Source: a virus
IMG/VR virus record: IMGVR_UViG_3300048592_000919
Location: 1 to 41,200 of that record
Strand: one strand, 5' to 3'
Length of the DNA: 41,200 nucleotides
Shown piece by piece: positions 27,832-40,196 of this stretch. The notes below the pieces were generated by a model. The model was not told the DNA's origin and did no database searches. It saw only the letters and a list, made by a program, of their open reading frames with translations. The position numbers and the translations under genes are program-made. The stretch's first letter is position 1. Every line of letters starts with the position of its first letter.

Positions 27832-28016
27832 CTCAGCTCTTCCTTCTGCGGCGCTTCGGCAGGGGCGCTGCTGCGGCGCTTCTTCTCGAGCAGCAAGTCC
27901 CAGCGGACGCGATGGATGGACTCGCGCATGTCGCCGCGTGCGCCCACGCAAGGGTCGCCGGTGCGGGCGTGGCAGCGGTGGCAGCGCACCGACAGGTGCC
28001 AGGCGTCAGACGTCAA
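27828..28016 (-). CDS. small zinc-finger protein
   Basis: Encodes 62 residues. CHRCHARTGDPCVGARGDMRESIHRVRWDLLL contains a C-x2-C ... C ... H arrangement of the short phage zinc-finger type ('C..C.a..G.pC....G.....H..R'), which in other phages and actinobacteria is a nucleic-acid- or protein-binding element. The C-terminal part is charged. The start overlaps the upstream gene by 11 bases and the stop overlaps the GTG of the DUF4031 gene. Its function is unknown. Confidence 0.7.
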   Translation of the reverse strand: MTSDAWHLSVRCHRCHARTGDPCVGARGDMRESIHRVRWDLLLEKKRRSSAPAEAPQKEELR

Positions 28017-28203
28017 TGTCGTTCTTCCTCAGCCACCAAGTTGCCACATGCAGCTCTTCATCATCCTCCTCGATGCTGTCGCCGTCCTCACAGACCGAGC
28101 GCGGGATCCAGGTGCTCTCGCCTTCCTCTAGCTTCACCAGGACCGCTTTGTCGGTGGTCTGTTCAACGAGACCGCTGACGAGGGTGTACTGAGGCTCAGA
28201 CAT
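28006..28203 (-). CDS. small acidic hypothetical protein
   Basis: Encodes 65 residues from the ATG at 28203, preceded by GGAG. The middle part is very acidic (CEDGDSIEEDDEELH) and the first half (YTLVSGLVEQTTDKAVLVKLEEGESTWIPRSVC) looks like a small beta-barrel of the kind seen in short phage proteins with 'kAi.v...g...WiPkS.i' pattern. It lies four bases after the polymerase stop codon. The family is not named with certainty. Possible roles include a DNA mimic or accessory replication protein; this is speculation from charge alone. Confidence 0.65.
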   Translation of the reverse strand: MSEPQYTLVSGLVEQTTDKAVLVKLEEGESTWIPRSVCEDGDSIEEDDEELHVATWWLRKNDIDV

Positions 28204-28207
28204 TGCT

Positions 28208-31081
28208 TCACTCCGCTGCGATTGCTGGGACTTGCTCGGGCTGCGCCGCCGGCTCGCCGAGCGGGCAGTCCTCCAGCTTCCGCCACCGCTCGATGTAGAC
28301 CTTGCGGAAGCCGGCCTTGACGTTGCCACGCCAGAGGAACCATGTGCCGATCGGGTGGTCGTCCACCAGGGGTCGGCCCCACTTGGCGTAGTCGAAGCGC
28401 CCGACGGTGCCGATGATGCTGCCGGTGTCATCCTCGATCGTGATGTTGAGGAAGATGTTGTTGTTTGCGACCTTGCGGCCGCCCCGCTTGGCCAGGTTCT
28501 TGATCTCGTTCAGATCGCGCAGGTTCTTCTCGACCAGCTTCCCGATGAACACCACGGTGCCGCCGGAGTCATCGATGTCGATGATCTCCTTGATGGTGCT
28601 GCTGATGTTGTGGGCCTTGGGGTCGGCCAGCAAGGCGCCGAACCGGCGCGTGCCCTCGAAGATGCTGTCGAACGGGGTGACTGGGTCGGCCAGCTTCTTC
28701 TCCTGCGCGGGCGTCAGCGCCACTCCGTTGGCGCGGCGCATGATGATGTCCTGCGCCATCTTCTCGCCGATACCCTTGATGTTGGTGAGACCACCCACCA
28801 GGGCGCCGTCCTGCACCGACCAGTCCTTGAGGCTGCGCTCGCGGTCGAACACCTTGAAGGTTCGGCCGGCGCGGTGCAGCTCCCGCAGCAGCTTCACCGG
28901 CGCGATCTCGTCGCGTGCGTGGCGGAGCGTGGCCGCCGCGAACTCCAGCGGGAAGTGCGCCTTCAGAACCAGGCACCAGTAGCTCACCAGCCCATAGGCT
29001 ACCGCGTGCGACTTGTTGAACGACCAGGACCCCATCGTGTTGATCTGGTCCCAGATGCGCCGGGCCAGGTCCTCCTCGATGCCCTGCGACGCAGCACCGA
29101 CCTTGAACCGCTCCCAGAACTGGTCGAAGAACTCCTTGCCCATGGACTTGGACATGGCCTTGCGCAGCGTGCTGACGTCTTCCCAGGTCAGCTTCCCGAC
29201 CTCGCGCGCGATCCGCATTACCTGCTCTTGGTACAGGATGATGCCGTAGGTGTCGTGCGAGCAGTCCTCCACGATCGGGTGCAGGTAGCTGACGGGCGCT
29301 CCCATGCGGCGCTTCACCCACTCGGACGCGCCGCCGGAACTCAGCGGCCCCGGCCGCGCCAGCGCGGTGATCGCCACGATGTCCTCGAAGCGATCCATGT
29401 GGATCTGCCGCGTCAGCGACTGCAGCGCGAAGCCTTCGAACTGGAAGATGCCGGCGTACTGCTGTGCGTTCAGCACGTCGAACGCGGCCTGGTCGTCACG
29501 GCGATAGTCCAGAAGCTGCTCGCGGGTCCAGCCGATCTGGTCGAGGCAATCCTGGATGACCGATAGAGTGCGCAGGCCCAGCGCGTCGATCTTCAGCAGA
29601 TTGATCTTCTCGCCGTCGTACTTGTCGATCTGCAGCGTGCCGCTGCGCCCGTCCACCGCGACGAAGTTCTCGATGGGCTCGGCGGTCACGACCACGCCGG
29701 CCGCGTGCTGGCCGGAGCCACGGGCGTGCTGCTCCAGCTGCGCTGCCAGGGCCATCTGCGGATGCGCCGCCATCAGCCGCTTGCCGGCCTCCAGAAGCTC
29801 GAAGCTGTCCATGATGCAGAAGCCGGCACGCGAGTCGCCCGAGGAGCGCTCGATGATCTGCGACTTGAAGTCCTGCACTTCCCAGGAGGGGATGCCGAGC
29901 TCCTTGGCGACGTCGCCGACCGCGCTCTTGGCCTTGTAGCGCGAGACTGTGCCGATGCGCGCCACGCAGTCCGCGCCGTAGCGCTGCCGCAGGTAGTCGA
30001 ACACCATGTCGCGGCGCTCGTCCTGGAAGTCGATGTCGATGTCCGGCAGATCCTTACGGGTCAGGTCAATGAACCGCTCGAACAGCAGCCCGTAAGGGAT
30101 TGGGTCGATGTCGGTGATGCCGAGCAGGAAGCAGACCAGGGAGCCACAGGAAGATCCACGTGCTGGGCCAACCAGCATGTGCTGCTTGGCGTAGGCCACC
30201 ATGTCGGCGATGACGTAGAAATAGTCCTCGAACTTCTTCTGCGCAATGAGCCCCAGCTCGCGGTCCAGTCGCTGTGCGTACACCGGATCGTTCAGGTCGA
30301 TGCCGCGTCCCGCTGCCGCTGCCTCGCACATCTCGCGCAGGGAGCGCTCCGCCGGGAACTTCACCATTTCCGCAAGGCCCGGCGCCGCGTCGCACACGTA
30401 AGCCAAGTTGTCCCCGACCGCGAACGCCGACTCGTCGAGCCAGTCCAGCTCGCCCATCAGGTCCCACTGGTCGATCAGGTGCATGGGCGCGATGCGGTTT
30501 TGCCGGTCGCGCCCGACGCAGACCTCGTAGATCCGCCGGTCCTCCAGGGCCGGGAAGAAGTTGTCGGAGCAGGGCATCAACGGCAGCTTGCCACTACGGC
30601 CGAAGTCCAGTACCTTCTTCTGCGTGGCCGGGTGCGCCTCGATGAACATATACTCCCGGTTGCGCGGCACCATGCCGATGTCCGGGTTGCTGCCGAGCAG
30701 CACCACCACGTTGTCGGTCACGGAGTGCAGCCAGGAGTAGTCCACCCTTGGCACATAGTAGAAGTCCTCGGTGGCTTTCCGCACCGCCCGGTTGATCTCG
30801 CGCAGGCCCTCGTTGTTCCGGGCGATCAGCGAGATCCAGTTGATCGCCTGCTTGGTCTTCTCCGAGGAGTCCTCCACCAAGCCCAGCTCCACGCCGAGCA
30901 ACGGCTTGATGCCGGCTTCCTTGCAGTGCTTCATCCACTGCACATGCCCGAAGGTGCTGCCGCGATCCGTGATGGCGGCGTACTTGCAGCCCAGCTGCTG
31001 CAAGCGCCCGACCACCTTCTTCAGCGGACCGTAGGCGGCGCGGAACGAGTACTCAGTCCGGACCTTCAGTTGCGCACGCAT
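28208..31081 (-). CDS. DNA polymerase III alpha subunit-like (family C) polymerase
   Basis: Encodes 957 residues, shorter than the roughly 1160 of E. coli DnaE. The palm signature is intact: GPARGSSCGSLV (305-316), PDIDIDF with Asp349 and Asp351, and LLKIDALGLRTL with Asp499, equivalent to the three catalytic Asp of family C. The N-terminal PHP domain starts VRTEYSF, so the usual HxH metal motif (HvHSeYS) is missing. The C-terminus has an OB-fold segment (GGTVVFIGKLVEKNL...FLNITIEDDTGSIIGTVGRFDY). GAGGAGG lies upstream of the ATG. The adjacent DnaQ-like gene probably supplies proofreading. This is the phage replicative polymerase. Confidence 0.95.
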   Translation of the reverse strand: MRAQLKVRTEYSFRAAYGPLKKVVGRLQQLGCKYAAITDRGSTFGHVQWMKHCKEAGIKPLLGVELGLVEDSSEKTKQAINWISLIARNNEGLREINRAVRKATEDFYYVPRVDYSWLHSVTDNVVVLLGSNPDIGMVPRNREYMFIEAHPATQKKVLDFGRSGKLPLMPCSDNFFPALEDRRIYEVCVGRDRQNRIAPMHLIDQWDLMGELDWLDESAFAVGDNLAYVCDAAPGLAEMVKFPAERSLREMCEAAAAGRGIDLNDPVYAQRLDRELGLIAQKKFEDYFYVIADMVAYAKQHMLVGPARGSSCGSLVCFLLGITDIDPIPYGLLFERFIDLTRKDLPDIDIDFQDERRDMVFDYLRQRYGADCVARIGTVSRYKAKSAVGDVAKELGIPSWEVQDFKSQIIERSSGDSRAGFCIMDSFELLEAGKRLMAAHPQMALAAQLEQHARGSGQHAAGVVVTAEPIENFVAVDGRSGTLQIDKYDGEKINLLKIDALGLRTLSVIQDCLDQIGWTREQLLDYRRDDQAAFDVLNAQQYAGIFQFEGFALQSLTRQIHMDRFEDIVAITALARPGPLSSGGASEWVKRRMGAPVSYLHPIVEDCSHDTYGIILYQEQVMRIAREVGKLTWEDVSTLRKAMSKSMGKEFFDQFWERFKVGAASQGIEEDLARRIWDQINTMGSWSFNKSHAVAYGLVSYWCLVLKAHFPLEFAAATLRHARDEIAPVKLLRELHRAGRTFKVFDRERSLKDWSVQDGALVGGLTNIKGIGEKMAQDIIMRRANGVALTPAQEKKLADPVTPFDSIFEGTRRFGALLADPKAHNISSTIKEIIDIDDSGGTVVFIGKLVEKNLRDLNEIKNLAKRGGRKVANNNIFLNITIEDDTGSIIGTVGRFDYAKWGRPLVDDHPIGTWFLWRGNVKAGFRKVYIERWRKLEDCPLGEPAAQPEQVPAIAAE

Positions 31082-31096
31082 GCGCCGCCTCCTCGT

Positions 31097-31636
31097 TCAG
31101 ATGTGACCCTGGCTCTTCAGCCAGAGGTAGCACTTCACCAGCGCCTCAACGTCCACCATGGCGCGGTGCGCCCCGCTGAACCGCTCGCTGAATGCCAGCT
31201 CGTAGAGGTCACCCAGGTTGAGCTTGTAACCCTTGAGCTGCAGGCTACGCTCGACAGTGCAGATCTGCCGGGGCGGCCAGGGGAATGCCGTCAGCTTGCC
31301 CAGGCGCTCCGCTTCATAGCGGAGCACTGACAGGTCGAACGGCAAGTTGTGGGCGACCAGCACGCTGGTGCCGACCATGAAGTTGGCGATGCGCGGCCAG
31401 ACCGCCGGCATGCGCGGCGCGTCCTTAACCATTTCGTCGGTGATGCCGGTGATGCGCTGCGCCTCCTCCGGGATCAGCATGCCCGGATTGACCAGAAGGT
31501 CGAGTCGCTCCAGCTCGTCGCCGTTGGCGTCCAGCTTGATGGCGGCGAACTCGATGATGCGTGGCTGCTGCTCGATGTTGGCCGCGTCCACCATCGTGAG
31601 ATTGGTGGTCTCAGTGTCGAAGACGACCGTGATCAT
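31097..31636 (-). CDS. DnaQ-like DEDDh 3'-5' exonuclease
   Basis: Encodes 179 residues from the ATG at 31636, which overlaps the previous stop (ATGA) and puts ExoI near the N-terminus as usual. Motifs: ExoI FDTET (Asp7, Glu9), ExoII AHNLPFDLSVL (Asp101), ExoIII GAHRAMVDVEAL (His157, Asp162), giving a complete DEDDh set. The size is that of an exonuclease domain alone, without a separate alpha-binding tail of clear type. Situated 15 bases upstream of the family C polymerase gene, it is most likely the proofreading (epsilon-like) subunit of the phage replisome. Confidence 0.92.
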   Translation of the reverse strand: MITVVFDTETTNLTMVDAANIEQQPRIIEFAAIKLDANGDELERLDLLVNPGMLIPEEAQRITGITDEMVKDAPRMPAVWPRIANFMVGTSVLVAHNLPFDLSVLRYEAERLGKLTAFPWPPRQICTVERSLQLKGYKLNLGDLYELAFSERFSGAHRAMVDVEALVKCYLWLKSQGHI

Positions 31637-32175
31637 GCCGCCTCGTCCTCCCGGCGCTCGGTCATGAAGAAGCAGCCGGGGCCGTGCGAGCACAGCGCCA
31701 TGCTTGGCTCACGGACGCCGCAGCGCGGACAGGGCCAGCCGTTGGAGGCGCCAATGGCCGCCGCCGGGCCTTCGCCCGCCGCCGGGCCTTCTGGGGCTCC
31801 CGCGCCCACGCCTGGGCCGGCAACCGCCATCTCGTCCGAGGTCCGGGGCTGGGCGGCGCGCGCCAAGATGGCGTCCTCGTCGAGCTCCCGCAGCATGGCG
31901 GCATACACCGACACATCGTCTAGCGAGTCGGCGTGCCCGCCCGCGTGGAAGCGGGGTGCGTAGCGGGAGATCTTCCCGACCACTTGAACGAACACGCCGA
32001 AGCGATTGAAGTCCTCGGCGGTGCGCAGCTGCAAGCCGTTCGGGAACAGCGCCAGCATGACCTGTCCGAACCACTTGTAGTTGTTGGTGTAGGCAGCGTT
32101 GCGGTCGCGATAGAGATCGCCGAGCCGCGACAGGTGCTGCGGGACAGAGAAGGCGACAGGGCTGTCGTCGGGCAT
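31633..32175 (-). CDS. putative nucleotide-pyrophosphohydrolase-like protein with zinc ribbon
   Basis: Encodes 180 residues. The N-terminal half (LSRLGDLYRDRNAAYTNNYKWFGQVMLALFPNG, then FNRFGVFVQVVGKISRYAPRFHAGGHADSLDDVSVYAAML) follows the 'l..l..lf..Rna.Yg.ny...G......p.g......d..r......k..R........ha.Dsl.DlavYa.ml' pattern of DUF6378/DUF1599-like proteins, all-alpha relatives of MazG-type NTP pyrophosphohydrolases. A Gly/Ala/Pro linker with a tandem repeat leads to a Cys-rich end (CPRCGVREPSMALCSHGPGC) likely to bind zinc. It may alter the dNTP pool, for example by removing a normal nucleotide. Family assignment is by pattern, not by search. Confidence 0.62.
   Translation of the reverse strand: MPDDSPVAFSVPQHLSRLGDLYRDRNAAYTNNYKWFGQVMLALFPNGLQLRTAEDFNRFGVFVQVVGKISRYAPRFHAGGHADSLDDVSVYAAMLRELDEDAILARAAQPRTSDEMAVAGPGVGAGAPEGPAAGEGPAAAIGASNGWPCPRCGVREPSMALCSHGPGCFFMTERREDEAA
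31758..31791. repeat. two-copy 15-bp tandem repeat in the linker of the pyrophosphohydrolase-like gene
   Basis: CGCCGCCGGGCCTTC occurs at 31759-31773 and again at 31777-31791, with an 18-bp period that keeps the frame and encodes two Glu-Gly-Pro-Ala-Ala units on the minus strand. It is a coding micro-repeat of a flexible linker. Confidence 0.7.
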
Positions 32176-32177
32176 GA

Positions 32178-32531
32178 TCAGAAGGGCTCCGTGGCGACGG
32201 TGCGCTCGTTGGTCTTGAGGATGTGGTTGCGGTAGCGTTCGCCGAAGAACAGGATGCGCGCCAGCACCAGGACAATACCGTAGGTGGCGAGGTCCTGCCC
32301 GATCTGCCGCGCCGCCAGCAGAATGATGCGCTGCGTCATGCGCTGCCGCTCGGTCGCCGGCATGCTGTCTTCGGGCATCACCAGCGGCGGCGGCTCGCTC
32401 GGGGCCGGTGGGCGGATGGGCCGGTTGGCGATCGTGTCGAGGTCCGGCTTGCGCTTGCGCTTCAGTCTCGGTGTTGCCTTCTGCGCTGCCTTGATGCTGC
32501 CAGCCGAAAGCGCGCTCTTGATTCGGGCCAT
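32178..32531 (-). CDS. hypothetical protein with basic N-terminus and hydrophobic helix
   Basis: Encodes 117 residues from the ATG at 32531; GAGGAGA lies about 10 nt upstream, and the longer frame would run into the upstream gene. Residues 1-32 are very basic (IKSALSAGSIKAAQKATPRLKRKRKPD), a Pro-rich linker follows, and the C-terminal half is helical with a hydrophobic stretch (LATYGIVLVLARILFFG). It is not recognised. A DNA-binding tail combined with a helical oligomerisation or membrane helix is what the sequence shows. The stop lies two bases before the start of the next gene. Confidence 0.62.
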   Translation of the reverse strand: MARIKSALSAGSIKAAQKATPRLKRKRKPDLDTIANRPIRPPAPSEPPPLVMPEDSMPATERQRMTQRIILLAARQIGQDLATYGIVLVLARILFFGERYRNHILKTNERTVATEPF

Positions 32532-32545
32532 CTGTTCCGTTCTCC

Positions 32546-33064
32546 TCAGAAGGTGCCGGGTCGCACCTGCAAGCAGCGGAAGCCGGCTTTCCGCCAAGCC
32601 TCCACCACCTTGTCGCGGTCATCCAAGACCAACAGCGTGTTGTCCGGCCGCAGGCCGGCGTCCTCCGCGAGCCGCAGCTTGATGCGGACGTCGCTGTCGT
32701 AATTGCCCTGCGGCCGCATCAGCAGCCGCTCCGACGGCACATTCAGGCCGTGCTCGCGCAGCCACTGCTCGGTCGCGGCGCGGTGCCCGTCGTCGCGACC
32801 GGTGCAGATCCAGATGGCGTAGCGCTCCGCTAGCAGCACGACCAACTCGAGCACGTCATCGTGCGGCATGTCGTGCTTGGACTCGCGGTGGAAGGCCTGC
32901 CAGTCCGGCTTGAACTCCTCGCGGCCGGGCGGCGCCTTGATGAAGGTTTCTCGCCACTCGCAGTCCGCGACTGTCCCGTCCAGGTCAACGATGACGTTGG
33001 CCTTGGTAGGGATCATGAAGACGCCCGAGCCGCGCTCCGGCTCGGACAGATCCACGGAAGACAT
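32546..33064 (-). CDS. HAD-superfamily phosphatase, PNKP 3'-phosphatase-like
   Basis: Encodes 172 residues. HAD motif I is VIVDLDGTVAD with Asp27 and Asp29; motif II is ICTGRDD; a Lys follows in DVRIKLRLAE; motif IV is LLVLDDRDKVVEAWRKAGFRCLQV. The order and the end of the protein closely follow the C-terminal phosphatase half of T4 polynucleotide kinase (VIFDVDGT, then VVSGR and [23 protein letters not shown]). The kinase half is absent. It could repair 3'-phosphate ends or hydrolyse a phosphorylated nucleotide in the putative base-modification pathway. AAGGAGGG precedes the ATG at 33064. Confidence 0.85.
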   Translation of the reverse strand: MSSVDLSEPERGSGVFMIPTKANVIVDLDGTVADCEWRETFIKAPPGREEFKPDWQAFHRESKHDMPHDDVLELVVLLAERYAIWICTGRDDGHRAATEQWLREHGLNVPSERLLMRPQGNYDSDVRIKLRLAEDAGLRPDNTLLVLDDRDKVVEAWRKAGFRCLQVRPGTF

Positions 33065-33067
33065 CGC

Positions 33068-33820
33068 TCAACCCTCCTTCCGCAGGATGTCGATCTCCTT
33101 GAGGAGGTCCCATCCCAGCTTGTCGTTGAGCTTGCGCACCTCGGCCGCCAGCTCCTCCAGCCGCTTCCAGGCATCCCGCCCGCGCGGGAACAGGAAGGCC
33201 TCCGCCCAGGGGTGCACCGCCAGCACCGCATTGACCATGCCGTCCACCACCTCACGGTACTCGTCCTGGGTGCGGCCGCCGGTGCGGGACTTGGCGATGT
33301 CCGACATCGTGCGCAGGTTGAACTTGACGACGATGTTGGTCTCGATGTTGGTGGGGAGGAGGCCGCGCGCATCCTCCGCCTCGATGCCCAAGCTGAGGAT
33401 CTCGCCGTAGGTGTCGGCGATCATCATCATCGCTTGCTCGTACTTGGCCTTGGCGACCGCCGCGTTGTGGCGCTTCCCCGGCTCCTGGGTGTTGAAGCTG
33501 GGGCCGGTGCGGTACTTGAACCGCCCGTTCTCGTTGACGTTCAGCTTGCGCATGGTCTGCTGCGCGTAGGTGCCGGTGCGGGTGCGCACCTGCTGGTGGG
33601 TGTAGGCGCGCGTCACGCCTTCCACCATGAAGACGTAGTCGACGAACTCCCAGCTGCTGGGGATGGTCCGCGACATGTAGGAGAGCGCTTCCAGCTTGCG
33701 CTCCTCCGGCCAGGCCTTGATGGCAGCCAGTCCGTCGGGCGACATCTGCAGCCGCGTCTCCTTGGTGAAGATCAGCAGCTCGGCAGCGTCGCTCGTTTGG
33801 TTGATCAGTGTGATGCGCAT
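33068..33820 (-). CDS. thyX: ThyX-like flavin-dependent thymidylate synthase homologue
   Basis: Encodes 250 residues from ATG 33820 with GAGGGGAG upstream. The central block VDYVFMVEGVTRAYTHQQVRTRTGTYAQQTMR matches the ThyX core ('.f.f.ie.vsR...hQlvRhRtas.neqS.Ry'). A C-terminal block has LLPTNIETNIVVKFNLRTMSDIAKSRTGGRTQDEYREV, equivalent to '..LP....t.......R.l.hf...R....aQ.EiR'. The ThyX motif RHR-x7-S reads R79-T-R81-x7-T89, so His and the conserved Ser are replaced by Thr. ThyX makes dTMP from dUMP with methylene-folate and FAD. Here it may make thymidylate or a modified pyrimidine, given the carbamoyltransferase neighbour. Confidence 0.86.
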   Translation of the reverse strand: MRITLINQTSDAAELLIFTKETRLQMSPDGLAAIKAWPEERKLEALSYMSRTIPSSWEFVDYVFMVEGVTRAYTHQQVRTRTGTYAQQTMRKLNVNENGRFKYRTGPSFNTQEPGKRHNAAVAKAKYEQAMMMIADTYGEILSLGIEAEDARGLLPTNIETNIVVKFNLRTMSDIAKSRTGGRTQDEYREVVDGMVNAVLAVHPWAEAFLFPRGRDAWKRLEELAAEVRKLNDKLGWDLLKEIDILRKEG

Positions 33821-33834
33821 GGCGCTAGCTCCCC

Positions 33835-35562
33835 TCAGCGCTGGCGAACGTAGAAGCGGCCCTCGGCCCAGACCGCCGCGATGCTGGTCTGGGCAGCGAA
33901 GGCCAACGCGTCCTCGACCGACGGCAGGAAACCCTTGCCGGGGAAGTTGGCCGAGGTGTTGCAGAGCAGCGGCGGACCGCCGGCCTCCACATGTCCTTGC
34001 AGGATGCGGTAGGTGATCGGGCACTGCGACTCGTTGACCGTCTGCAGTCGGGCACTGCCGTCGCTGTGCACGATGGCCGGAACCTTCTTGACTCGCTCCT
34101 TCCGCACCATGTGCTCGAACAGCATGTAGGGGTCAGGTGTGCCAGGAGCGAAGAACTCCGGCGCGTGCTCCTCCATGCAGATCGGCGCCACCGGCCGGAA
34201 GCCTTCCCGCCCCTTCACACCGTTAAGGTAGGACTTGTTGCTGTCCATCTCCGCCGACATGAGGATGCTGCGGTGGCCGAGCGCACGCGGGCCGAGCTCG
34301 GCGCGACCGTGCATCGCGATCACAGCACTCAGGCGATTGCCCTGGAGCCACCGGCCCAGGTGCTCCGGCTCCATCAGGGACGACGTCCACATGGCGTGCC
34401 GGTCGTTGTCCTCCAGGATCAACTTAGGCCCGGCGTAGTGACTCCACTTGAGCGACCAGTCGCCCTCGTAGGCCATCATGCACGCCGCCGCGCCCAGCGC
34501 CGAGCCGGAGTCGTTGGGGAACGGCGGCACCCAGACGTCCGGGAACATGCCGCTGTTGCGCAGCATGGCGTTCCACTTGATGTTGAGGGCGCTGCCGCCG
34601 GTGAAGATCAACGGGGTCGATAGCGATTTGCTGTGGGCGTAAATGGCATCTTCCAGGCCGCGAAGGAGGTGCTGGCCGAGCTCGTGCTGGATCGTAACCA
34701 GAGCGACGTCGTCGGGGACACTGAGCATGCTGCAGACTCTCTGAAAGGCCCGCAGGATCTCGTGCTCATGGACGCCACCCTGGCGCCGCCGCACCGCGCC
34801 CCACTCCGGCACCTCCGTCAAGGCCCGGTCCATGGAGTAAAGGTATCCCCGGAAGATGTCCTGCAGCTGCGCGTCGCGCCGCGCATCACCGATCCAGGCC
34901 ATCAGCTTGCCTGGCCACTCGTAGGTGCCGAACACGTTGTCGCGCAGCAGCGACGGGTTCATTGCAGCACCGCACATCCCCCAATCCCTGTAGGGACCGA
35001 AGTAGTAGCCCATCATGCTGTAGATGTAGCCGAAGATGCAGGTGATCTCCTTGACGAAGGTCACCTTCTCCCACGGATCGTAATGGTTGGGGTCCACGAA
35101 GTAGAGCCGGGCGCCGGTGCCGCCGTCCCAGACCAGCACGTAAGCCGGCTGCTTGCTGGCTGCGTAAGGCGACGTCACGTAGGAGCCGACGATGTGCCCC
35201 ATGACGTGGCTGAACGAAACGTAGCTGCCAGGGAAGGGCGCAGGGTCGCGGAACGGGAGCTCGGTCGGCTGCAGCGGATAGTCGAGTCGCCTGCCGTCAC
35301 CTTCGTGATAGGGAGCAACACACGTCGGGCCACCAGGCCAGTTGGCGTTGCCGACCTTCCAGCCGTCGATGACGAAGTGGTCGATGTGGCTGGGCTTCAG
35401 TCCCTCGCTTTCCAGCACATCGAGGATCGCGCCCCATGCCGGCATCTTCGTGTAGCGCGGGTTGTTGCCGACCTTCTCCAGCTCGGTGCTGAAGATCAGC
35501 TCACCGTCGGACACGAACGCCACAGCGGCGTCGTGGGTGAGCTTGATTCCGAGAATGTTCAT
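33835..35562 (-). CDS. NodU/CmcH-family O-carbamoyltransferase
   Basis: Encodes 575 residues from ATG 35562. The full two-domain family pattern is present: MNILGIKLTHDAAVAFV (Kae1-like start, His10-Asp11), SYVSFSHVMGHIVGSYVTSPY (the 'HH..HA.sAfy' element), VLVWDGGTG, FTGGSALNIKWNAML, GRAELGPRALGHRSILM, KGREGFRPVAPICMEEHAPEFF, and HSDGSARLQTVNE leading to GGPPLLCNTSANFPGKGF. These enzymes make carbamoyl-adenylate from carbamoyl phosphate and ATP and move the carbamoyl group to a hydroxyl. In a phage next to a thymidylate synthase homologue, the likely acceptor is a hydroxymethyl pyrimidine. The ribosome site is AGGAC, and an own leader of 55 nt separates it from the gene before. Confidence 0.93.
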   Translation of the reverse strand: MNILGIKLTHDAAVAFVSDGELIFSTELEKVGNNPRYTKMPAWGAILDVLESEGLKPSHIDHFVIDGWKVGNANWPGGPTCVAPYHEGDGRRLDYPLQPTELPFRDPAPFPGSYVSFSHVMGHIVGSYVTSPYAASKQPAYVLVWDGGTGARLYFVDPNHYDPWEKVTFVKEITCIFGYIYSMMGYYFGPYRDWGMCGAAMNPSLLRDNVFGTYEWPGKLMAWIGDARRDAQLQDIFRGYLYSMDRALTEVPEWGAVRRRQGGVHEHEILRAFQRVCSMLSVPDDVALVTIQHELGQHLLRGLEDAIYAHSKSLSTPLIFTGGSALNIKWNAMLRNSGMFPDVWVPPFPNDSGSALGAAACMMAYEGDWSLKWSHYAGPKLILEDNDRHAMWTSSLMEPEHLGRWLQGNRLSAVIAMHGRAELGPRALGHRSILMSAEMDSNKSYLNGVKGREGFRPVAPICMEEHAPEFFAPGTPDPYMLFEHMVRKERVKKVPAIVHSDGSARLQTVNESQCPITYRILQGHVEAGGPPLLCNTSANFPGKGFLPSVEDALAFAAQTSIAAVWAEGRFYVRQR

Positions 35563-35617
35563 GGTCCGTCCTGTGTTGGCCGGTCGTCGCTTCGGGCAGC
35601 TACCGGCAGGTGGTTGA

Positions 35618-36616
35618 TTAGGCGGCGGGCTTGCGCACCGCGCCGTAGTGCAGCCGTCGCGCATACGAGGAGCGGCTCTTCATCAACGAGTCGATGACGC
35701 GCAGATCCTCGGCGACGTCGTCGAGCAGGATCTGCCGCCACGTGGCGAACCGACCCAGCGAGTAGATGCCGAACTCGTCTGTGAGGCCAATGATGAAGCT
35801 CTTGCGCTCTGCATCGTCGATCGGCATGATCTTGCCGTAGGGCTGGTGCTTGAACGAGAAGGCACCGCGCTGCGGCACATGGTCGAAGAGCCGGGCGCAG
35901 AACGTCTCGTACTGCGCCTTGACTTCCGCTGGGTTCGGCTGGTAGGCGTACTCCATGATCAGCTGATTGCCGCTCGTGGATATGCGGTAAGGGCCAGGAC
36001 CTTCGCCGTGCTCCCGCCGATCGTCGATCGCTGTGAACCGCAGATCATGCCACGGATTGTAGACCGTCTGGTAGACGTCCACGCCCTCCATGCAGGTCCA
36101 CACCGAGGTGATGGCCTTGTGCCGGAACTTCGGGCGTTGCTCAGCTGGCACACCGAGCAGGCTCATCATCGCCGGCATCGGGATGGTGCTGATGATCGTC
36201 TCACCATTCTCATGGTGCCGTCGCAGGTCCATCAGCATCGCGGTGTAGCTGTACCGGATGTCGGTGCCCTTGGCCAGTTCGCAGGTGAAGTCGTCCGGCG
36301 CGACATAGCGCTCCGCCGGGGCCAGGTTCATGATGCTACGCGGCAGGATGCTGCCGGTGACCTTGCGCGAGTAGGCGTTTTGGTGCAGCAGCGTGGCGCG
36401 ATCCGACAGTGTGCCGTCACGCTCCATGACTGCCTTCTGAACGTGCACCTTGCGCAGCGGAATGCCCGAGGTCTCCCCGACGATATTGCTGCGGAAGCGC
36501 AGCAGCGCCCGGTGGTTGTGCGGGATCGCGCTCTGGGCTTCGAGCACGACCGGGGAGTGGTGGCGGAAGTAGCGGGCGGCAAGCAGGCCGGCCAAGCCGG
36601 CGCCGATGATGATCAT
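35618..36616 (-). CDS. FAD/NAD-dependent oxidoreductase of unknown substrate
   Basis: Encodes 332 residues from ATG 36616. The N-terminus MIIIGAGLAGLLAARYF is a Rossmann dinucleotide-binding motif (Gly5, Gly7, Gly10), followed by VVLEAQS with the Glu that binds the FAD ribose. The rest (TIPMPAMMSLLGVP, VDVYQTVYNPWHDLRFTAIDDRR, LIMEYAYQPN, IGLTDEFGIYSLGRFATWRQILLDDVAEDLRVI) resembles phage-encoded amine-oxidase/UDP-galactopyranose-mutase-type flavoproteins only in architecture. It lies directly upstream of the carbamoyltransferase. FAD-dependent oxidoreductases are known parts of thymidine hypermodification clusters in other phages, which fits a DNA-base role. The substrate cannot be told from sequence. 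Confidence 0.82.
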   Translation of the reverse strand: MIIIGAGLAGLLAARYFRHHSPVVLEAQSAIPHNHRALLRFRSNIVGETSGIPLRKVHVQKAVMERDGTLSDRATLLHQNAYSRKVTGSILPRSIMNLAPAERYVAPDDFTCELAKGTDIRYSYTAMLMDLRRHHENGETIISTIPMPAMMSLLGVPAEQRPKFRHKAITSVWTCMEGVDVYQTVYNPWHDLRFTAIDDRREHGEGPGPYRISTSGNQLIMEYAYQPNPAEVKAQYETFCARLFDHVPQRGAFSFKHQPYGKIMPIDDAERKSFIIGLTDEFGIYSLGRFATWRQILLDDVAEDLRVIDSLMKSRSSYARRLHYGAVRKPAA

Positions 36617-36777
36617 GTGGATCTGCCCGTCTCGAGGAGATTGCTGCCGGGGATGCCGCCCCGGCCCGCCCACCACTAGCGCAGGTGGCGCTCAAACCCA
36701 GGACAGGCACCGGGGCCGGCTGCGGAGCCTAGGGTAACTCCGCACATGCACCGGTGCGCCGCCACTGGGCAGCTCGA
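36617..36777 (-). promoter_or_regulatory. structured leader between Lys/Ala-rich gene and oxidoreductase gene
   Basis: A 161-nt non-coding gap, the largest in the right arm. It contains three inverted repeats: GCCGGGG/CCCCGGC (36646-36652 with 36659-36665, loop 6), TGCGGAG/CTCCGCA (36721-36727 with 36738-36744, loop 10) and the palindrome GCACCGGTGC (36748-36757). No good ribosome site precedes the oxidoreductase ATG. It is probably a terminator of the upstream gene and/or the start of a new transcript for the putative modification genes. No promoter can be named. Confidence 0.5.
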
Positions 36778-38283
36778 TCAGGCGGCCTGCGCGGTCTCCG
36801 CCTCCGGCTCGGCCGCCGCGTTCGCGGCCGGCGCCGCCGACTCGTAGTGGTGGACGGTGCCGTCCGGCTCGACCACCTTCATGTGGCCGTGCTTCAGGTC
36901 CCACTGCAGGTCGCCACGCCGACCGCCCTTGTCCTGGAAGTCCTTCACGGTGATGCCATCGGGCATCGCCGCCAGGACGATCTTGTGCGAATGCCAGCCG
37001 TGGCTGCCCTCGCGACGCGGGTTGCCGTCGCGCGTCGAGAAGATCTTCCAGTCGGAGCCGATCGCCAGACCGAGCGAGTTGCCGCCGCCGGAAACCTTCG
37101 GGGCCTTCGGCTCCTTGGCCTGCGCCGCCTTGGCCGCCTTGGCCGCCTCGCGCGCCGCCTTGGCCGCCGCCCGCTCCTCGTCCTTCTTGGCCTTGGCGGC
37201 CTCGCGCTCGGCCTTCTTCGCCTCGGCCTTGCCGGCCTTGGCCGCCTCCGCCGCCGCGCCGAGCTCCGCCAACTTCGCGTTCACCGCCTCCAGCCGCGCG
37301 TCGCGGTCGGTGATGATGACGTGCTCGAGGTCCTCGGGCGCCTTGCTGCCGGACGCCTCGCGCGCCGCCGCCTCCTCGCTGGACATGATCCAGGGGAGAC
37401 CCTGCTTGACGGCGAGCCGCCGCAGCTTGCTCTCCTCCATGGTCAGCTCGTACTGACCCTTGCTCGTCTTGGGGGCCGGCGTCTCGGCCGGCGTCTCGGT
37501 CGTCTGCGCTTCGGACATTCTCGCATATCCCTTCAACACGTCACGGTGTGGGATCGGCCACACCACCGCTGATGCCCTCAAGGACCGTTCTGGGTGTTCG
37601 CGCAGGGCCAGGGCGGCCGCCGCGTTCATCAGGTCGGGCAAAGAGTTCAACGCAAGACCACCCAGAAAGGCTGTGCGACTAGCAGGCAATATGTCGGAGG
37701 AAACGACCACCATTTGCCCAGTCGGAACGTCCTGGTGGATCGCGAACCATGGCCCCTCCGTTTCGGCCGCAGAAGCATCTTCGCTGATCGCGGCCCTGCG
37801 GAAAACCTGAAACTGCGTCCACATGGGCACAGTTCGTTTGCTCCAACGAGGAGCGTCCTTCATGTTCAACCAGCGCGCCGTCAACAGCATCCGATGAGCG
37901 ACATGCAGGTCAGCGACAGAGGAGAGGTCCACGCGATGCGCCTTGAGTTGGCGCGGGAAGTAGAACTGATCCGGCTCGCAGTAGTGGTGATCCCACTGCC
38001 GGTAGCGGGCCATGTCGGATTGGGCCGGATGGTCAGCGTTGAACCTGCGCTTGTACTCATTGAGCAATGCAATGAAGTAGTGCAGGCACCAGCCCTTGAT
38101 GCTGTCGCGCGCCTCCAGGGCATAGGTGAGTTCGTCCGGCGCCGGCCAAGGGCGCTTGCGCGCGCGGTCCGGCGTGGCCTGTCGCGCGAGCTCGGTGTGG
38201 AGATACTCCAGGGACGGGCGCAGCGCCTCGTCGTCCAGCGCCTCCACACAGGCATACGGATTGCCGTAGGGGATATACAGCAT
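36778..38283 (-). CDS. two-part protein: glycosylase-like N-half and Lys/Ala-rich C-half
   Basis: Reads as 501 residues without a stop. Residues 1-255 (MLYIPYGNPYACVEALDDEALRPSLEYL, then SIKGWCLHYFIALLNEYKRRFNADHP, FYFPRQLKAHRVDLSSVADLHVAHRMLLTARWLNM and APRWSKRTVPMW) weakly recall the pyrimidine-dimer DNA glycosylase/DUF group of phages. At Met256 (nt 37518) a good second start exists: GAAGGGA 9 nt upstream of ATG, followed by MSEAQTTETPAET, a typical disordered N-terminus. The second part contains an AEAKKAEREAAKAKK-type histone-H1-like Lys/Ala coiled tract and an end with TVKDFQDKGGRRGDLQWDLKHGHMKVVEPDG. It may be a fusion, or two genes that share the frame with the first stop lost. Confidence 0.65.
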   Translation of the reverse strand: MLYIPYGNPYACVEALDDEALRPSLEYLHTELARQATPDRARKRPWPAPDELTYALEARDSIKGWCLHYFIALLNEYKRRFNADHPAQSDMARYRQWDHHYCEPDQFYFPRQLKAHRVDLSSVADLHVAHRMLLTARWLNMKDAPRWSKRTVPMWTQFQVFRRAAISEDASAAETEGPWFAIHQDVPTGQMVVVSSDILPASRTAFLGGLALNSLPDLMNAAAALALREHPERSLRASAVVWPIPHRDVLKGYARMSEAQTTETPAETPAPKTSKGQYELTMEESKLRRLAVKQGLPWIMSSEEAAAREASGSKAPEDLEHVIITDRDARLEAVNAKLAELGAAAEAAKAGKAEAKKAEREAAKAKKDEERAAAKAAREAAKAAKAAQAKEPKAPKVSGGGNSLGLAIGSDWKIFSTRDGNPRREGSHGWHSHKIVLAAMPDGITVKDFQDKGGRRGDLQWDLKHGHMKVVEPDGTVHHYESAAPAANAAAEPEAETAQAA

Positions 38284-38285
38284 GA

Positions 38286-38540
38286 TCAACCGTCCGACAG
38301 AAGCCACGCCCAGAAAAGAGCGATCAGATAGAAGCGGTGCGGACCGTTGCGCTCGCTGACTGTGAGGCCGTAGCGGACCTCCACCCAGTAGCCGTCCTTG
38401 TCCTTCTGAATCTCGGTCGTGACCAGCATTGCCTCTTTTCCTTTCTGCTCTTCTTCGGCCATGCACTTGCGCTTGAGAAGGCACTCTGGGACGCGGGAAC
38501 AATCGCACTCCGCCATGATCTGCCCCATGTGCACCATCAT
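38286..38540 (-). CDS. small Cys-containing hypothetical protein
   Basis: Encodes 84 residues starting at ATG 38540 (or the next codon at 38537), with GGGAGA 4 nt upstream. The N-terminal third has CDCSRVPECLLKRKC, four Cys that could bind a metal. The middle is acidic and basic (EEEQKGKE), and the C-terminal half contains VEVRYGLTVSERNGPHRFYLIALFWAWLLSDG, with a hydrophobic aromatic stretch. Not recognised. The stop lies two bases from the start of the next gene, so it is within the operon. Confidence 0.6.
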   Translation of the reverse strand: MMVHMGQIMAECDCSRVPECLLKRKCMAEEEQKGKEAMLVTTEIQKDKDGYWVEVRYGLTVSERNGPHRFYLIALFWAWLLSDG

Positions 38541-38550
38541 TTTTCTCCCG

Positions 38551-40020
38551 TCATAACGTGTAGTGGCGTGGCGTGTGCGGCGCGACAGCCACCAGTCGCT
38601 CGCGCACCCTGGTCAGGCCCACATAGAGCACGCGTCGCTCTTCGTCGGTGTCGCGCTGCTCCCAGACCCGGCGGCTGATGTCCATGACTAGCGCGACGTT
38701 GTCGGCTTGCGCACCCTTGGCGCTGTGGATTGTCTCGATGCGGATGCGTGGCGACTCGGTGGCGCGCTCGCCCTTGGCCATGACGGAGCGAATGTACTCC
38801 CGCTCCTCCGCTGGCATCAGCGGCAGTGCTTCCATCCAGGTCAAGCCGCGCAGCCCTTCCGGCACGCCGGCTTCCGTCAGCGTCGCAGGCTTGCGCACAT
38901 CGATCGTGATGCCGGTCGGAAGCAGGCGCTGGATCTCCTTGAGCTCCTTGGGCCGCAGCTGCTCATTGCGGCGGCCACGCTCCCAGGCGCGGGCGGCGCG
39001 GTAGTGCGGCGTGTCCAACGAGCTCTGCCCGCGCAGCGCGTAATGCCGGCCCTGCGCGCGGCACAGCCGGGCATAGCGACCTAGTTTGCTGCCGTTGCGC
39101 GCCAGCAGCAGCCACTCGTCGCGCTCCCCGAGATCGATGTACTCGACCTCCCGCACATGCTCGATGGCGCCGTCAGCGGCGCGCGGGTCGAACGTCTTGG
39201 GCTCGCGCGTGCGGATGCGGCCCACCACGTCTAGCGCCAAGGCGGCAGCGCGACGCGGCAGACGGTGCGACTGCTTCAGGAACTCCTTCTCGCCGTTCCA
39301 CGCCAGGAACGCACGAGCGTCAGCGCCTGCCCAACCATAGATCGCCTGGTCATCGTCGCCTGCCATATACACCCGCAAGGCGGCGCGGGCGGCGCGGCGC
39401 GCCATCCGCCACTGCAGAGCCGAGAGATCCTGCGCTTCATCCACGACGAACACCTGCACAGGCAGCTCTTCATCGAACATCTCCAGCAGGTCGGTGAAGT
39501 CCAGCTTGCCGCGCGCCTCCTTGAACACGCGCAGCGCGCTGGCGTATTGCTGCACGACCGTGAGGCTGGTGTTGCGCGGATTGATCAGGCGGAACAGGTC
39601 GGCCGGCTCCTGCAGCGTCAAGCGCGCGAGAGCGTCGATGCGGATGCAGACCTCCGGCACACTGTCGCCGAGCGGCAGGCCGGTATTCTCGTCGAAGTTG
39701 GCATGGAAGGCCGAGGTCAGGCCGAGCACCATGAACAGCTCGCGGTAGTCCTCCGGCCCCATCATCTCGTCGGAGCCGACCGCCGCTGCACGGAATGCCA
39801 CCGAGTGCAGGGTGCGGAAGTGCGGTAGCTGCTCCTCCTGCAAGGCCAACTCGTCGCACACCCGTTGCACCGCTTCCTTGATGGCGCGGCGCGTGAAGGA
39901 GCAGAAGGCGATCTGTTCCGCCGGCACACCGTCCCGGATCTCCTGCTCGACGATGCGCAGGAGCCGGTGGGTCTTGCCGGTGCCGGGCGGGCCGAACACC
40001 TTCCGCACCCGGCCGGTCAC
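38551..40020 (-). CDS. UvrD/Rep-family superfamily 1 DNA helicase
   Basis: Encodes 489 residues from a GTG start at 40020 that overlaps the upstream stop (GTGA) and puts the Walker A motif near the N-terminus. Motifs: I GPPGTGKT (10-17), Ia IAFCSFTRRAI, II VFVVDEAQDLS, III GDDDQAIYGWAGAD, IV FLKQSHRLP, V IETIHSAKGAQADNV, VI RRVLYVGLTRVRERL. All are typical of UvrD/Rep/PcrA helicases. At 489 residues it is shorter than cellular UvrD (about 720) and lacks most of the 1B/2B insertions, as is usual for phage forms. The likely role is 3'-5' unwinding in phage replication or repair. Confidence 0.93.
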   Translation of the reverse strand: MTGRVRKVFGPPGTGKTHRLLRIVEQEIRDGVPAEQIAFCSFTRRAIKEAVQRVCDELALQEEQLPHFRTLHSVAFRAAAVGSDEMMGPEDYRELFMVLGLTSAFHANFDENTGLPLGDSVPEVCIRIDALARLTLQEPADLFRLINPRNTSLTVVQQYASALRVFKEARGKLDFTDLLEMFDEELPVQVFVVDEAQDLSALQWRMARRAARAALRVYMAGDDDQAIYGWAGADARAFLAWNGEKEFLKQSHRLPRRAAALALDVVGRIRTREPKTFDPRAADGAIEHVREVEYIDLGERDEWLLLARNGSKLGRYARLCRAQGRHYALRGQSSLDTPHYRAARAWERGRRNEQLRPKELKEIQRLLPTGITIDVRKPATLTEAGVPEGLRGLTWMEALPLMPAEEREYIRSVMAKGERATESPRIRIETIHSAKGAQADNVALVMDISRRVWEQRDTDEERRVLYVGLTRVRERLVAVAPHTPRHYTL

Positions 40021-40196
40021 TTGCGCGTCGTCCAGGTGTGCTTGCAGATCCGGCAGCGCCAGTCGGCGGACTTCTCGCTGAAGTCGCGCAGCTCGATCTG
40101 CTCGTTCTCGCACTGCTGGCAACGCAGGCTCTGCGCGGCGCGGCACCAGGCCTCGCGCTGGTCGGCGCGGTCGGCGGCGCGCTGGAAGCGGCTCAC
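40017..40196 (-). CDS. 59-residue zinc-ribbon protein
   Basis: A short gene from a GTG at 40196, which overlaps the stop of the gene before (GTGA); its own stop overlaps the helicase GTG in the same way. The protein has 59 residues, with a helical N-terminus (FQRAADRADQREAWCRAAQS) and a clear zinc ribbon: C-x2-C in LRCQQCEN and a second C-x2-C in WRCRICKH, 20 residues apart, closing with TWTTRK. Such ribbons bind nucleic acid or partner proteins. It may be an accessory factor of the following helicase. It would be missed by a 60-residue length cut-off. Confidence 0.72.
   Translation of the reverse strand: MSRFQRAADRADQREAWCRAAQSLRCQQCENEQIELRDFSEKSADWRCRICKHTWTTRK

Follow-up and report, generated by a model that had tools for sequence, protein, structure and literature searches.

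A run of minus-strand genes in a viral DNA, IMGVR_UViG_3300048592_000919 (the window, i.e., the whole stretch of 41,200 nucleotides that was analyzed), probably represents a phage cassette for nucleotide or DNA hypermodification, in which a ThyX-type hydroxymethylation would be followed by carbamoylation, with 5-carbamoyloxymethyl-dU as the probable product. This reading is based on gene content, conserved linkage, residue losses, and one protein fold, from which we infer every chemical step. A sequence-only reading had proposed a base modification cassette beside replication genes, a ThyX start, and a role for the carbamoyltransferase (CARB) within it; its interpretation holds for the cassette (as probable), for the tie of CARB to it, and for ThyX; the link of CARB to a published phage enzyme acting on 5hmC is one of reaction type and not of orthology.

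Cassette locus and its counterparts in other phages

All of the named cassette genes are present in the window, tightly packed on the minus strand from position 36616 to 31633 (Table 1), and both these coordinates and the Pfam, PHROG, and TIGR matches agree with the earlier description of a single run next to the polymerase genes. The exonuclease ORF matches PF00929 at 100.4 bits (cut-off of 24). As had been suggested, the start of the putative pathway is of the ThyX type rather than the ThyA type: a PF02511 gene is present, and a scan of 19 ORFs of the window (10 in Pfam, PHROGs, and NCBIfam and 9 more in PHROGs only) detected no ThyA-type family. Window positions 28000 to 41200, compared with phage records at near identity, gave zero matches. 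The window contains no end repeat of at least 25 bases and may therefore be incomplete.

Table 1. Genes of the putative hypermodification cassette and its downstream neighbors in the window
Feature	Coordinates	Strand	Basis
FAD enzyme, predicted UDP-galactopyranose mutase/amine-oxidase fold	35618..36616	-	phrog_4828, AlphaFold2 model
CARB, O-carbamoyltransferase, NodU/CmcH superfamily	33835..35562	-	Pfam, motifs
Variant ThyX	33068..33820	-	PF02511, TIGR02170, residue alignment
HAD phosphatase, PNKP type	32546..33064	-	PF25109, phrog_415
Small ORF, no assigned function	32178..32531	-	Profile comparison
DUF6378-like helical protein	31633..32175	-	phrog_4889 C-terminal part
DnaQ-type 3'-5' exonuclease, conserved downstream neighbor	31097..31636	-	PF00929
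DnaE-type DNA polymerase III alpha subunit, conserved downstream neighbor	28208..31081	-	Pfam, conserved neighborhood

The arrangement FAD-ThyX-HAD-DUF6378-like-DnaQ-DnaE is a widespread phage cassette, found in Pbunavirus and Wifcevirus among others. At 80 loci collected through ThyX alone, several of them on incomplete contigs, the FAD gene was present in 75, HAD in 72, the DUF6378-like gene in 57, DnaQ in 66, and DnaE in 63. In Pbunavirus 14-1 and in Wifcevirus Bas100, a single ORF contains both the HAD and the DUF6378-like domain, and the gene order in the latter phage is FAD-ThyX-HAD/DUF6378-SDR-VOC-DnaQ-DnaE. Many related phages likewise carry a short-chain dehydrogenase (SDR) and a VOC/glyoxalase-like protein within the cassette, and a radical SAM gene was seen once in the same stretch of these relatives. 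SDR occurred at 1 of 15 CARB loci versus 35 of 62 others (Fisher p of 4e-4), a count that left out the duplicates L001, L055, L091, and L104, loci L106 and up, and loci without FAD, ThyX, or DnaQ in view. This exclusion fades on collapsing ThyX at 90, 80, 70, and 60% (p of 0.007, 0.015, 0.19, and 1, respectively), and locus L003, which falls outside the count with DnaQ not in view, carries CARB and SDR together (profile E of 1.1e-29). The apparent mutual exclusivity of CARB and SDR/VOC is weakened by this test, since it vanishes once related loci are collapsed.

Predicted roles of the variant ThyX and its companions

The window ThyX matches PF02511 at 98.6 bits (cut-off of 24.8) and TIGR02170 (thyX) at 91.1 bits (cut-off of 87.9); some of the PHROGs that it matches carry only the name "thymidylate synthase." In place of RHRX7S, the ThyX signature motif, which is seen in the Mtb chain, the window protein has RTRX7T, and its K92 occupies the position of the lid tyrosine (Mtb Tyr108). 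Residues R71, R79, R91, and R179, corresponding to Mtb Arg87, Arg95, Arg107, and Arg199, are all retained, and R189 aligns with Mtb Arg209. Across the family alignment (102 rows, 87 distinct), Arg95, Arg107, and Arg199 are retained in 102/102 and Arg87 in 101/102, with the lid tyrosine present in 0/102 and the motif histidine in 6/102. Among 19 control ThyX proteins, 16 have the lid tyrosine, 18 the motif histidine, and 18 Arg199; loss of the lid tyrosine thus also occurs outside phages, as two threonines and one histidine in these controls. Mtb Arg199 is presumably the equivalent of T. maritima R174. According to an excerpt of PMC6514825, Mtb Arg87, Arg95, Arg107, and Arg199 touch dUMP, and Tyr108 screens C5 and the flavin N5 from solvent; an excerpt of PMC8316439 describes a flavin carbinolamine intermediate in the ThyX reaction and activation of dUMP by R174. 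A ThyX family with the dUMP arginines but without the water-shielding lid tyrosine is what a hydroxymethylase might look like. Because the uracil-activating arginine is conserved, U is favored as the modified base. In the proposed first step, the variant ThyX would use its flavin to carry a one-carbon unit from methylene-tetrahydrofolate to position C5 of the pyrimidine in a deoxynucleotide, and, because the lid tyrosine is missing, water would trap the intermediate to give 5-hydroxymethyl-dUMP rather than dTMP, the dCMP analogue being less likely.

For the FAD protein, Pfam gave Rossmann matches below threshold only, and phrog_4828 was matched with an E of 1.4e-64. Its AlphaFold2 model (mean pLDDT of 89.6) aligns with 4dsh_B at a VIA Z of 20.5 (300 aligned, rmsd of 4.0) and with protoporphyrinogen and monoamine oxidases at Z of 16 to 18; as modeled, the protein has a UDP-galactopyranose mutase (UGM)/amine-oxidase fold. 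The HAD phosphatase matches PF25109 (HAD_PNKP) at 87.9 bits (cut-off of 27.6) as well as phrog_415, and it covers the N-terminal part of phrog_4889, the C-terminal part being matched by the DUF6378-like ORF. The latter ORF, which the sequence-only reading took for a possible nucleotide pyrophosphohydrolase, is the least supported of its assignments. The window copy had zero Pfam matches; of the 33 members of its family, 28 have a DUF6378 match at E up to 0.5 (best of 9.1e-6), and the predicted fold had no Foldseek match at E of 0.001 and a Z of 6.1 to an iMazG chain, which is the noise level among unrelated helical proteins. For the small ORF, the sequences compared gave profile matches in the window and in L001, its copy, and in no other. 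In the proposed pathway, the phosphatase and the DUF6378-like protein would handle the nucleotide pool, and the FAD enzyme, a companion of nearly every version of the cassette, would perform a further flavin step. CARB would then use carbamoyl phosphate and ATP to place a carbamoyl group on the hydroxyl so exposed, either at the nucleotide stage or within DNA, the simplest product being 5-carbamoyloxymethyl-deoxyuridine; in related phages, the SDR and VOC/glyoxalase-like pair may be an alternative finishing module.

The carbamoyltransferase and the weighing of alternatives

CARB matches PF02543 (168.4 bits; cut-off of 24) and PF16861 (146.8 bits; cut-off of 27) and contains the motifs THDAA, HVMGH, GGSALN, GPRALGHRS, and NTSAN; its sole NCBIfam match, NodU NF041651, reaches 455.7 bits, below the equivalog cut-off of 1000. 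Twenty viral loci were fetched with CARB (36 to 45% identity), corresponding to 17 distinct CARBs once near-copies are collapsed, and each of the 20 has one or more further genes of the cassette (FAD in 17, ThyX in 17, HAD in 18, the DUF6378-like gene in 17, DnaQ in 18, and DnaE in 18), versus 0/13 loci with a distant viral CARB and 0/80 bacterial loci. Because of this distribution, CARB probably acts on the cassette product. The claim that the carbamoyltransferase belongs to the cassette is therefore upheld, and its homologues, whose settings were checked through neighborhood alone, divide into a phage clade inside the cassette and bacterial relatives outside it. Linkage to the cassette also speaks against a cell-surface or small-molecule role for CARB, which is disfavored.

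CARB is a rare insert whose position in the cassette varies among loci. One locus (L097) has CARB, FAD, and HAD with ThyX absent within 11.8 kb, and a 7.4-kb fecal scaffold, MT837218 (L229), carries CARB without any cassette gene. In a tree built with a quick method from 60 of 79 bacterial rows and 12 distant viral rows from 13 loci, with sequences over 900 aa dropped, a set of 20 cassette CARBs, window included, lies on one side of a branch (SH-aLRT of 86, under the tool's star), and this clade adjoins bacterial NodU-like enzymes; the long branches of the window, L103, L002, L105, L102, and the published 5hmC enzyme are flagged as possibly misplaced. Bacterial L123, L133, and L187 fall outside the main bacterial group, a second CARB-like ORF having been used for L123 and L133. 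The phage records listed for the CARB searches (40 of 134, 15 of 140, and 15 of 134) are mostly cyanophage, Pelagibacter, and marine, and include this fecal scaffold, in which the cassette genes were looked for; the list pointed to no cultured phage with CARB and the cassette, and Stenotrophomonas, Xanthomonas, and Bacteroides records fall outside it.

Pbunavirus JG024 carries FAD and thymidylate synthase genes. The SacII site consists of G and C only, and the ScaI, NdeI, and BsaI sites all contain T. In an excerpt of PMC10913387, JG024 virion DNA is uncut by ScaI, NdeI, and BsaI although sites exist, for which the authors suspect methylation, and it is cut by XbaI; SacII also cuts it (PMC3008698). 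As SCUT-S1 was moreover typed through HindIII/EcoRI/XbaI maps (excerpt of PMC6521218), the DNA of core-cassette phages is not all protected, and plain methylation could be an alternative cause of the JG024 resistance. Yeast-made JG024 DNA yielded phage in RM-deficient hosts only, a dependence that is not specific because the unrelated phage DMS3 likewise needed RM removal in PA14 (PMC10913387). The Wifcevirus genus is insensitive to all tested RM systems except EcoP1_I, by a protection mechanism that the excerpt of PMC11990801 gives as not known. We found no chemical data on any phage of the cassette set.

The core could instead supply ordinary dTMP for replication, with CARB as an auxiliary enzyme acting, NodU-like, on a small molecule, LPS, or the cell wall. 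We consider this unlikely: although ThyX exceeds the TIGR02170 equivalog cut-off and retains the dUMP-binding arginines, the lid tyrosine is gone from the whole family and the motif histidine from 96/102 members. Similarly, such a cassette is absent around the bacterial relatives of CARB (80/80), but the closer viral ones lie within one at 20/20 loci, at several positions, and relatives hold SDR, VOC-like, and once radical SAM genes in the same stretch. Cutting of JG024 DNA by XbaI and SacII counts for this alternative, and failure of ScaI, NdeI, and BsaI counts against it (PMC3008698; excerpt of PMC10913387).

A cytosine route, in which the variant ThyX would hydroxymethylate dCMP and CARB would form 5-carbamoyloxymethyl-dC, the reported product of a metagenomic phage enzyme, seems quite unlikely, as Mtb Arg199, whose role is to activate N3 of uracil, is retained in 102/102 and CARB is not orthologous to the 5hmC enzyme. 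JG024 DNA is also cut at the G+C-only SacII site, and the sites of the three failing enzymes have T. What favors cytosine, and counts against the 5-carbamoyloxymethyl-dU reading, is that the characterized phage carbamoyltransferase uses 5hmdCTP and refuses 5hmdUTP, as stated in an excerpt of PMC8670742. Still more improbable is a larger side chain, where CARB would act on a group built by the FAD enzyme rather than on a bare hydroxymethyl. A dedicated UGM/amine-oxidase-fold flavoprotein does stand beside ThyX in 75/80 loci, and phage SP-15, with ThyX proteins and dihydroxypentyl-uracil, shows that such a phage can have one (excerpt of PMC5977210). However, hydroxymethyl alone is enough for an O-carbamoyltransferase, and a scan of 13 minus-strand ORFs detected no family of amino-acid transferases, PLP enzymes, or kinases other than polynucleotide-kinase ones, for which the protein matched is the phosphatase or its neighbor.

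Comparison with known modification systems

We tentatively suggest that the cassette may belong to a large, unrecognized, modular hypermodification class in which a variant ThyX and a UGM-fold flavoprotein replace the ThyA-type hydroxymethylase, with the core alone (Pbunavirus 14-1), with CARB (the window phage, whose product would be a carbamoylated thymine analogue), or with SDR/VOC (Wifcevirus, Pluto, and Kyle), and that this explains the restriction resistance of JG024 and Wifcevirus. If so, "thymidylate synthase" and "hypothetical protein" genes of widely used phages, such as Pbunavirus (used in therapy) and Wifcevirus (BASEL collection), would be parts of a base modification pathway, ThyX would be a second enzymatic origin of hydroxymethyl-pyrimidine DNA, and nucleic acid chemistry would gain a new carbamoylating enzyme. 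The uncut JG024 DNA and the RM insensitivity of Wifcevirus, both unexplained in print, would become testable.

The phage 5hmC carbamoyltransferase mentioned in the sequence-only reading exists: the excerpt of the MetaGPA report (PMC8670742) describes conversion of 5hmC to 5cmC. Both this enzyme and CARB are phage O-carbamoyltransferases with PF02543/PF16861 that adjoin a thymidylate-synthase-type enzyme, and a carbamate on a pyrimidine hydroxymethyl, here predicted, is common to both systems. That excerpt also reports a PF01503 pyrophosphohydrolase-domain neighbor. The MetaGPA partner is PF00303 (ThyA-type), whereas the window partner is PF02511 (ThyX) together with the UGM-fold flavoprotein and the HAD phosphatase. 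Against 119 CARB homologues, the best-scoring match of the published enzyme is bacterial (24.9% identity), and its best-scoring match to cassette CARBs is 28.7% over 171 residues; in the tree it is far away, with a branch length of 5.8 of the kind that the tool warns may be misplaced. Low identity and distant tree position argue against CARB as its orthologue, and the link, as judged from these sequences, is one of reaction type, which is the part of the suggested parallel that stands.

Bacillus phage SP-15, with dihydroxypentyl-uracil DNA, has two Thy1/ThyX proteins, one of which, gp130, is the authors' proposed hydroxymethyl-uridylate synthase (excerpt of PMC5977210). SP15_129, annotated as an acyl carrier protein reductase, directly precedes the gp130 gene; neither protein matches the cassette ThyX or SDR profile at E of 1e-3, and no match to the cassette FAD or CARB profile was found in the 16 kb of SP-15 viewed. 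The NodU nodulation carbamoyltransferase shares its superfamily with CARB, but the context of CARB is phage replication and not Nod-factor synthesis. In T4, SP8, phiW-14, and ViI, the hydroxymethyl handle is made at the nucleotide level and is often decorated afterwards. Their ThyA-type dCMP/dUMP hydroxymethylases, whose pathways are covered in part by PMC7653180 and PMC8670742 (excerpts), have a fold unrelated to that of the ThyX proposed here for the first step.

A conserved gene run beside the polymerase genes

The 41.2-kb IMG/VR virus record has portal, protease, major head and tail matches on its plus strand and its replication genes on the minus strand, and no end repeat of at least 25 bases was found in it. 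ORFs, Pfam and NCBIfam confirmed what the sequence-only reading had noticed, namely that an FAD enzyme, a carbamoyltransferase, ThyX and a PNKP-type phosphatase lie in one minus-strand run by the polymerase genes, with intergenic gaps of at most 55 bases from the FAD enzyme to DnaE.

Genes of the minus-strand run in the window
Feature	Position	Strand	Remarks
FAD enzyme	36616-35618	minus	first of run
Carbamoyltransferase (CARB)	35562-33835	minus	Pfam well over cut-offs
ThyX	33820-33068	minus	Pfam well over cut-offs; NCBIfam narrowly (91.1 vs 87.9 bits)
PNKP-type HAD phosphatase	33064-32546	minus	Pfam HAD_PNKP well over cut-off
Small ORF	32531-32178	minus	
Small ORF, DUF6378-like family	32175-31633	minus	
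DnaQ-type exonuclease	31636-31097	minus	Pfam exonuclease well over cut-off
DnaE	31081-28208	minus	Pfam polymerase well over cut-off

Eighty viral loci were retrieved with the ThyX protein alone, and profiles built up from the proteins of the window were run over them. Several of these loci are cut by contig ends; the counts out of 80 were 75 for FAD, 72 for HAD, 57 for the 31633-32175 family, 66 for DnaQ and 63 for DnaE, and most loci share the order FAD-ThyX-HAD-DUF6378-like-DnaQ-DnaE. FAD, ThyX, DnaQ and DnaE occurred together in seven of eight named phages examined by profiles (Cronobacter phage Ss1, Vibrio phage VA-RY-3, Pbunavirus 14-1, Wifcevirus Bas100, Luteibacter phage Pluto, Pantoea phage Kyle and Burkholderia phage WTB), with the HAD and DUF6378-like domains fused in one ORF in 14-1, Bas100, Pluto, Kyle and WTB; in the eighth, a Rhizobium phage (L086), the stretch compared shows FAD, ThyX and a match of the DUF6378-like type. 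By tblastn, ThyX was matched in 449 phage records and the FAD protein in 359, 291 in each being Pseudomonas phages by name.

Several neighboring genes were also seen. A Lys/Ala-rich protein upstream of FAD in the window (36778-38283) has weak DNA-binding or transposase profile matches only; its profile also matches 10 of the 80 ThyX-fetched loci, and a protein of this type precedes FAD in CARB loci L092, L093, L095 and L096. Locus L082 has a second DnaE-family match upstream of FAD, and an ADP-ribosyltransferase-domain protein (PF03496; L052:5572-6912) occupies the slot between FAD and ThyX in another.

The carbamoyltransferase and alternative genes

CARB was present in 2 of the 80 ThyX-fetched loci, the two being near-copies. 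Viral contigs were searched with an alignment of four CARBs: that of the window, those of L002 and L003, which a CARB search had found, and that of L054, which came from the ThyX search. This gave 33 loci, 20 closer (36 to 45% identity) and 13 distant (25 to 32%). Allowing for copies or near-copies (L002/L003, L095/L096 and L091/L104), 17 of the closer loci are distinct. Every one of the 20 has one or more further cassette genes (FAD 17, ThyX 17, HAD 18, DUF6378-like 17, DnaQ 18, DnaE 18), and the neighborhood survey of ThyX plus carbamoyltransferase in other phages, put forward earlier as a check, found both in 17 of the 20. Within the DNA compared, no cassette gene lay beside any of the 13 distant viral CARBs or of 80 bacterial relatives (the best 80 of 150; 35 to 41% identity). 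CARB is part of the cassette. Its position varies: it lies in the FAD/ThyX, ThyX/HAD or HAD/DUF6378-like gap, or follows the DUF6378-like gene or DnaQ. Two exceptions are L097, with CARB, FAD and HAD but no ThyX found within 11.8 kb, and MT837218, a 7.4-kb fecal scaffold with CARB and without cassette genes. The ORF directly after CARB in L097 (8637-9218) appears to us to resemble an S-adenosylmethionine methyltransferase, and one upstream of the CARB-bearing cassette of L003 (2433-2978) looks like a putative HD-domain nucleotidase.

The window CARB keeps THDAA, HVMGH, GGSALN, GPRALGHRS and NTSAN, which we take to be active-site motifs. In the tree, a branch with SH-aLRT 86 (the tool's star is at 95) has 20 cassette CARBs on one side, the window's among them, and these are neighbors of NodU-like enzymes from bacteria. 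The published 5hmC carbamoyltransferase from a metagenomic phage (PMC8670742) lies elsewhere on a very long branch, has GPRALCNTT in place of GPRALGHRS, and finds its best-scoring match in a bacterial homologue (24.9% identity over 449 residues).

Many CARB-free cassettes carry two further genes in the stretch before DnaQ, one for a short-chain dehydrogenase (SDR; PF00106, E 1.2e-34 in one member), the other for a protein of VOC/glyoxalase type (PF13669, E 1.3e-5 in one member, just under the Pfam cut-off). The two are nearly always paired (both in 35 of 77 loci, SDR alone in 1), and SDR occurs in 1 of 15 CARB loci versus 35 of 62 others, a contrast that is not robust once related loci are collapsed; L003, which lies outside this count, also holds both CARB and an SDR. 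Wifcevirus Bas100, Pluto and Kyle carry this version; neither gene was found in the viewed stretch of 14-1, WTB, Ss1 or VA-RY-3. In one relative, ThyX and DnaE flank a radical SAM/SPASM protein (L072:9831-10850), a possible third finishing module.

The variant ThyX and the FAD enzyme

Residue numbers were checked against the Mtb ThyX chain, and the family sample comprised 102 rows, 87 of them distinct. The equivalents of Mtb Arg95, Arg107 and Arg199 are invariant in all 102 and that of Arg87 is kept in 101; Arg199 is presumably the R174 of a second published numbering. All four arginines are described among the dUMP contacts (PMC6514825), and R174 is reported to activate dUMP via N3 deprotonation (PMC8316439). 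Because this uracil-activating arginine is kept, the residue pattern favours dUMP as the substrate of the variant ThyX.

None of the 102 rows has the lid residue Tyr108, described as keeping solvent off dUMP C5 and flavin N5 (PMC6514825); Val mostly takes its place, and Lys does so in the window. The His of the RHRX7S motif is T, S or N in 96, and the Ser105 position holds T, S or A. Of the 19 controls, which were SP-15 gp9 and 18 ORFs of bacterial genomes, 16 have the Tyr, 18 the His, all 19 the Ser and 18 the Arg199. By spacing, Ser105 and Tyr108 match the Ser88 and Tyr91 that are described as within reach of the hydroxyl of the flavin carbinolamine (PMC8316439). Judged from these positions, the cassette ThyX has changes that could suit a hydroxymethylase, and its opened site would admit water, which would take the one-carbon intermediate. 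Water is reported to attack the methylene intermediate in T4 dCMP hydroxymethylase (PMC8670742), and the opened site would be the ThyX counterpart of the difference between that enzyme and thymidylate synthase.

For the FAD enzyme, Pfam gave Rossmann matches, all sub-threshold, and PHROGs assigned it to phrog_4828, a family of unknown function. An AlphaFold2 model (mean pLDDT 89.6; input of 43 window and viral sequences) matched UDP-galactopyranose mutases (VIA Z 20.5, 300 residues, rmsd 4.0), protoporphyrinogen oxidases (Z ~17-18) and monoamine oxidases (Z ~16), with a best Foldseek E of 5e-9. These matches of a predicted structure establish the fold, not the reaction.

Restriction phenotypes and known systems

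The cassette of Escherichia phage HansTraber_Bas100 (L225; PQ850605.1 33282-49947) reads FAD-ThyX-HAD/DUF6378-SDR-VOC-DnaQ-DnaE, and its genus, Wifcevirus, is reported to be unaffected by the RM systems tested other than EcoP1_I, with no mechanism of protection known (PMC11990801). Pbunavirus JG024 matches the FAD protein by tblastn of phage records (row H100) and has an annotated thymidylate synthase (PMC3008698). ScaI, NdeI and BsaI are reported not to cut its virion DNA, in which sites for them are predicted, and the authors suspect methylation; XbaI (PMC10913387) and SacII (PMC3008698) are reported to cut it. Another Pbunavirus, SCUT-S1, was typed with HindIII, EcoRI and XbaI, in a passage that does not state how complete the cutting was (PMC6521218). 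As an alternative to methylation, the resistance to ScaI, NdeI and BsaI could come from the product of the FAD-ThyX cassette. JG024 DNA made in yeast yielded phage only once host RM systems were removed, but the unrelated phage DMS3 likewise depended on RM removal in PA14 (PMC10913387), and the yeast result is therefore not specific evidence. The 5hmU DNA of SP8 is reported to resist just 8.3% of type II enzymes, EcoRI included (PMC7653180). A thymine modification that is small or incomplete, made by the core cassette, would agree with partial resistance, which methylation may also explain.

On balance, the locus is probably best accounted for as a specialised nucleotide-modification cassette ending in carbamoylation, in which the variant ThyX would hydroxymethylate a pyrimidine nucleotide and CARB would then carbamoylate it, probably giving 5-carbamoyloxymethyl-dU. 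The modified pyrimidine proposed in the sequence-only reading remains plausible to that extent, as a carbamoylating cassette with a ThyX start; its analogy with 5hmC fares less well, given the kept arginine, which favours U, and the distant place of the published enzyme in the tree. A bolder reading is that the cassette may represent a whole modular ThyX-based class.

No description of an FAD-ThyX-carbamoyltransferase cassette was recognised in the literature searched, with subscription papers and preprints largely outside it. SP-15, a phage with hypermodified uracil, has the reductase-like SP15_129 directly before and touching its divergent ThyX gp130 (L224; KT624200.1 115025-116910). This gp130, the candidate hydroxymethyl-uridylate synthase, differs in its weak PF02511 match (26.4 bits), and at E 1e-3 the profiles of the cassette families matched neither protein. 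For hydroxymethyl-pyrimidine DNA, carbamoylation is already known (PMC8670742). The SP-15 genome authors proposed one of its two Thy1/ThyX proteins as a hydroxymethyl-uridylate synthase (PMC5977210), and a ThyX route to modified thymine has therefore already been suggested.
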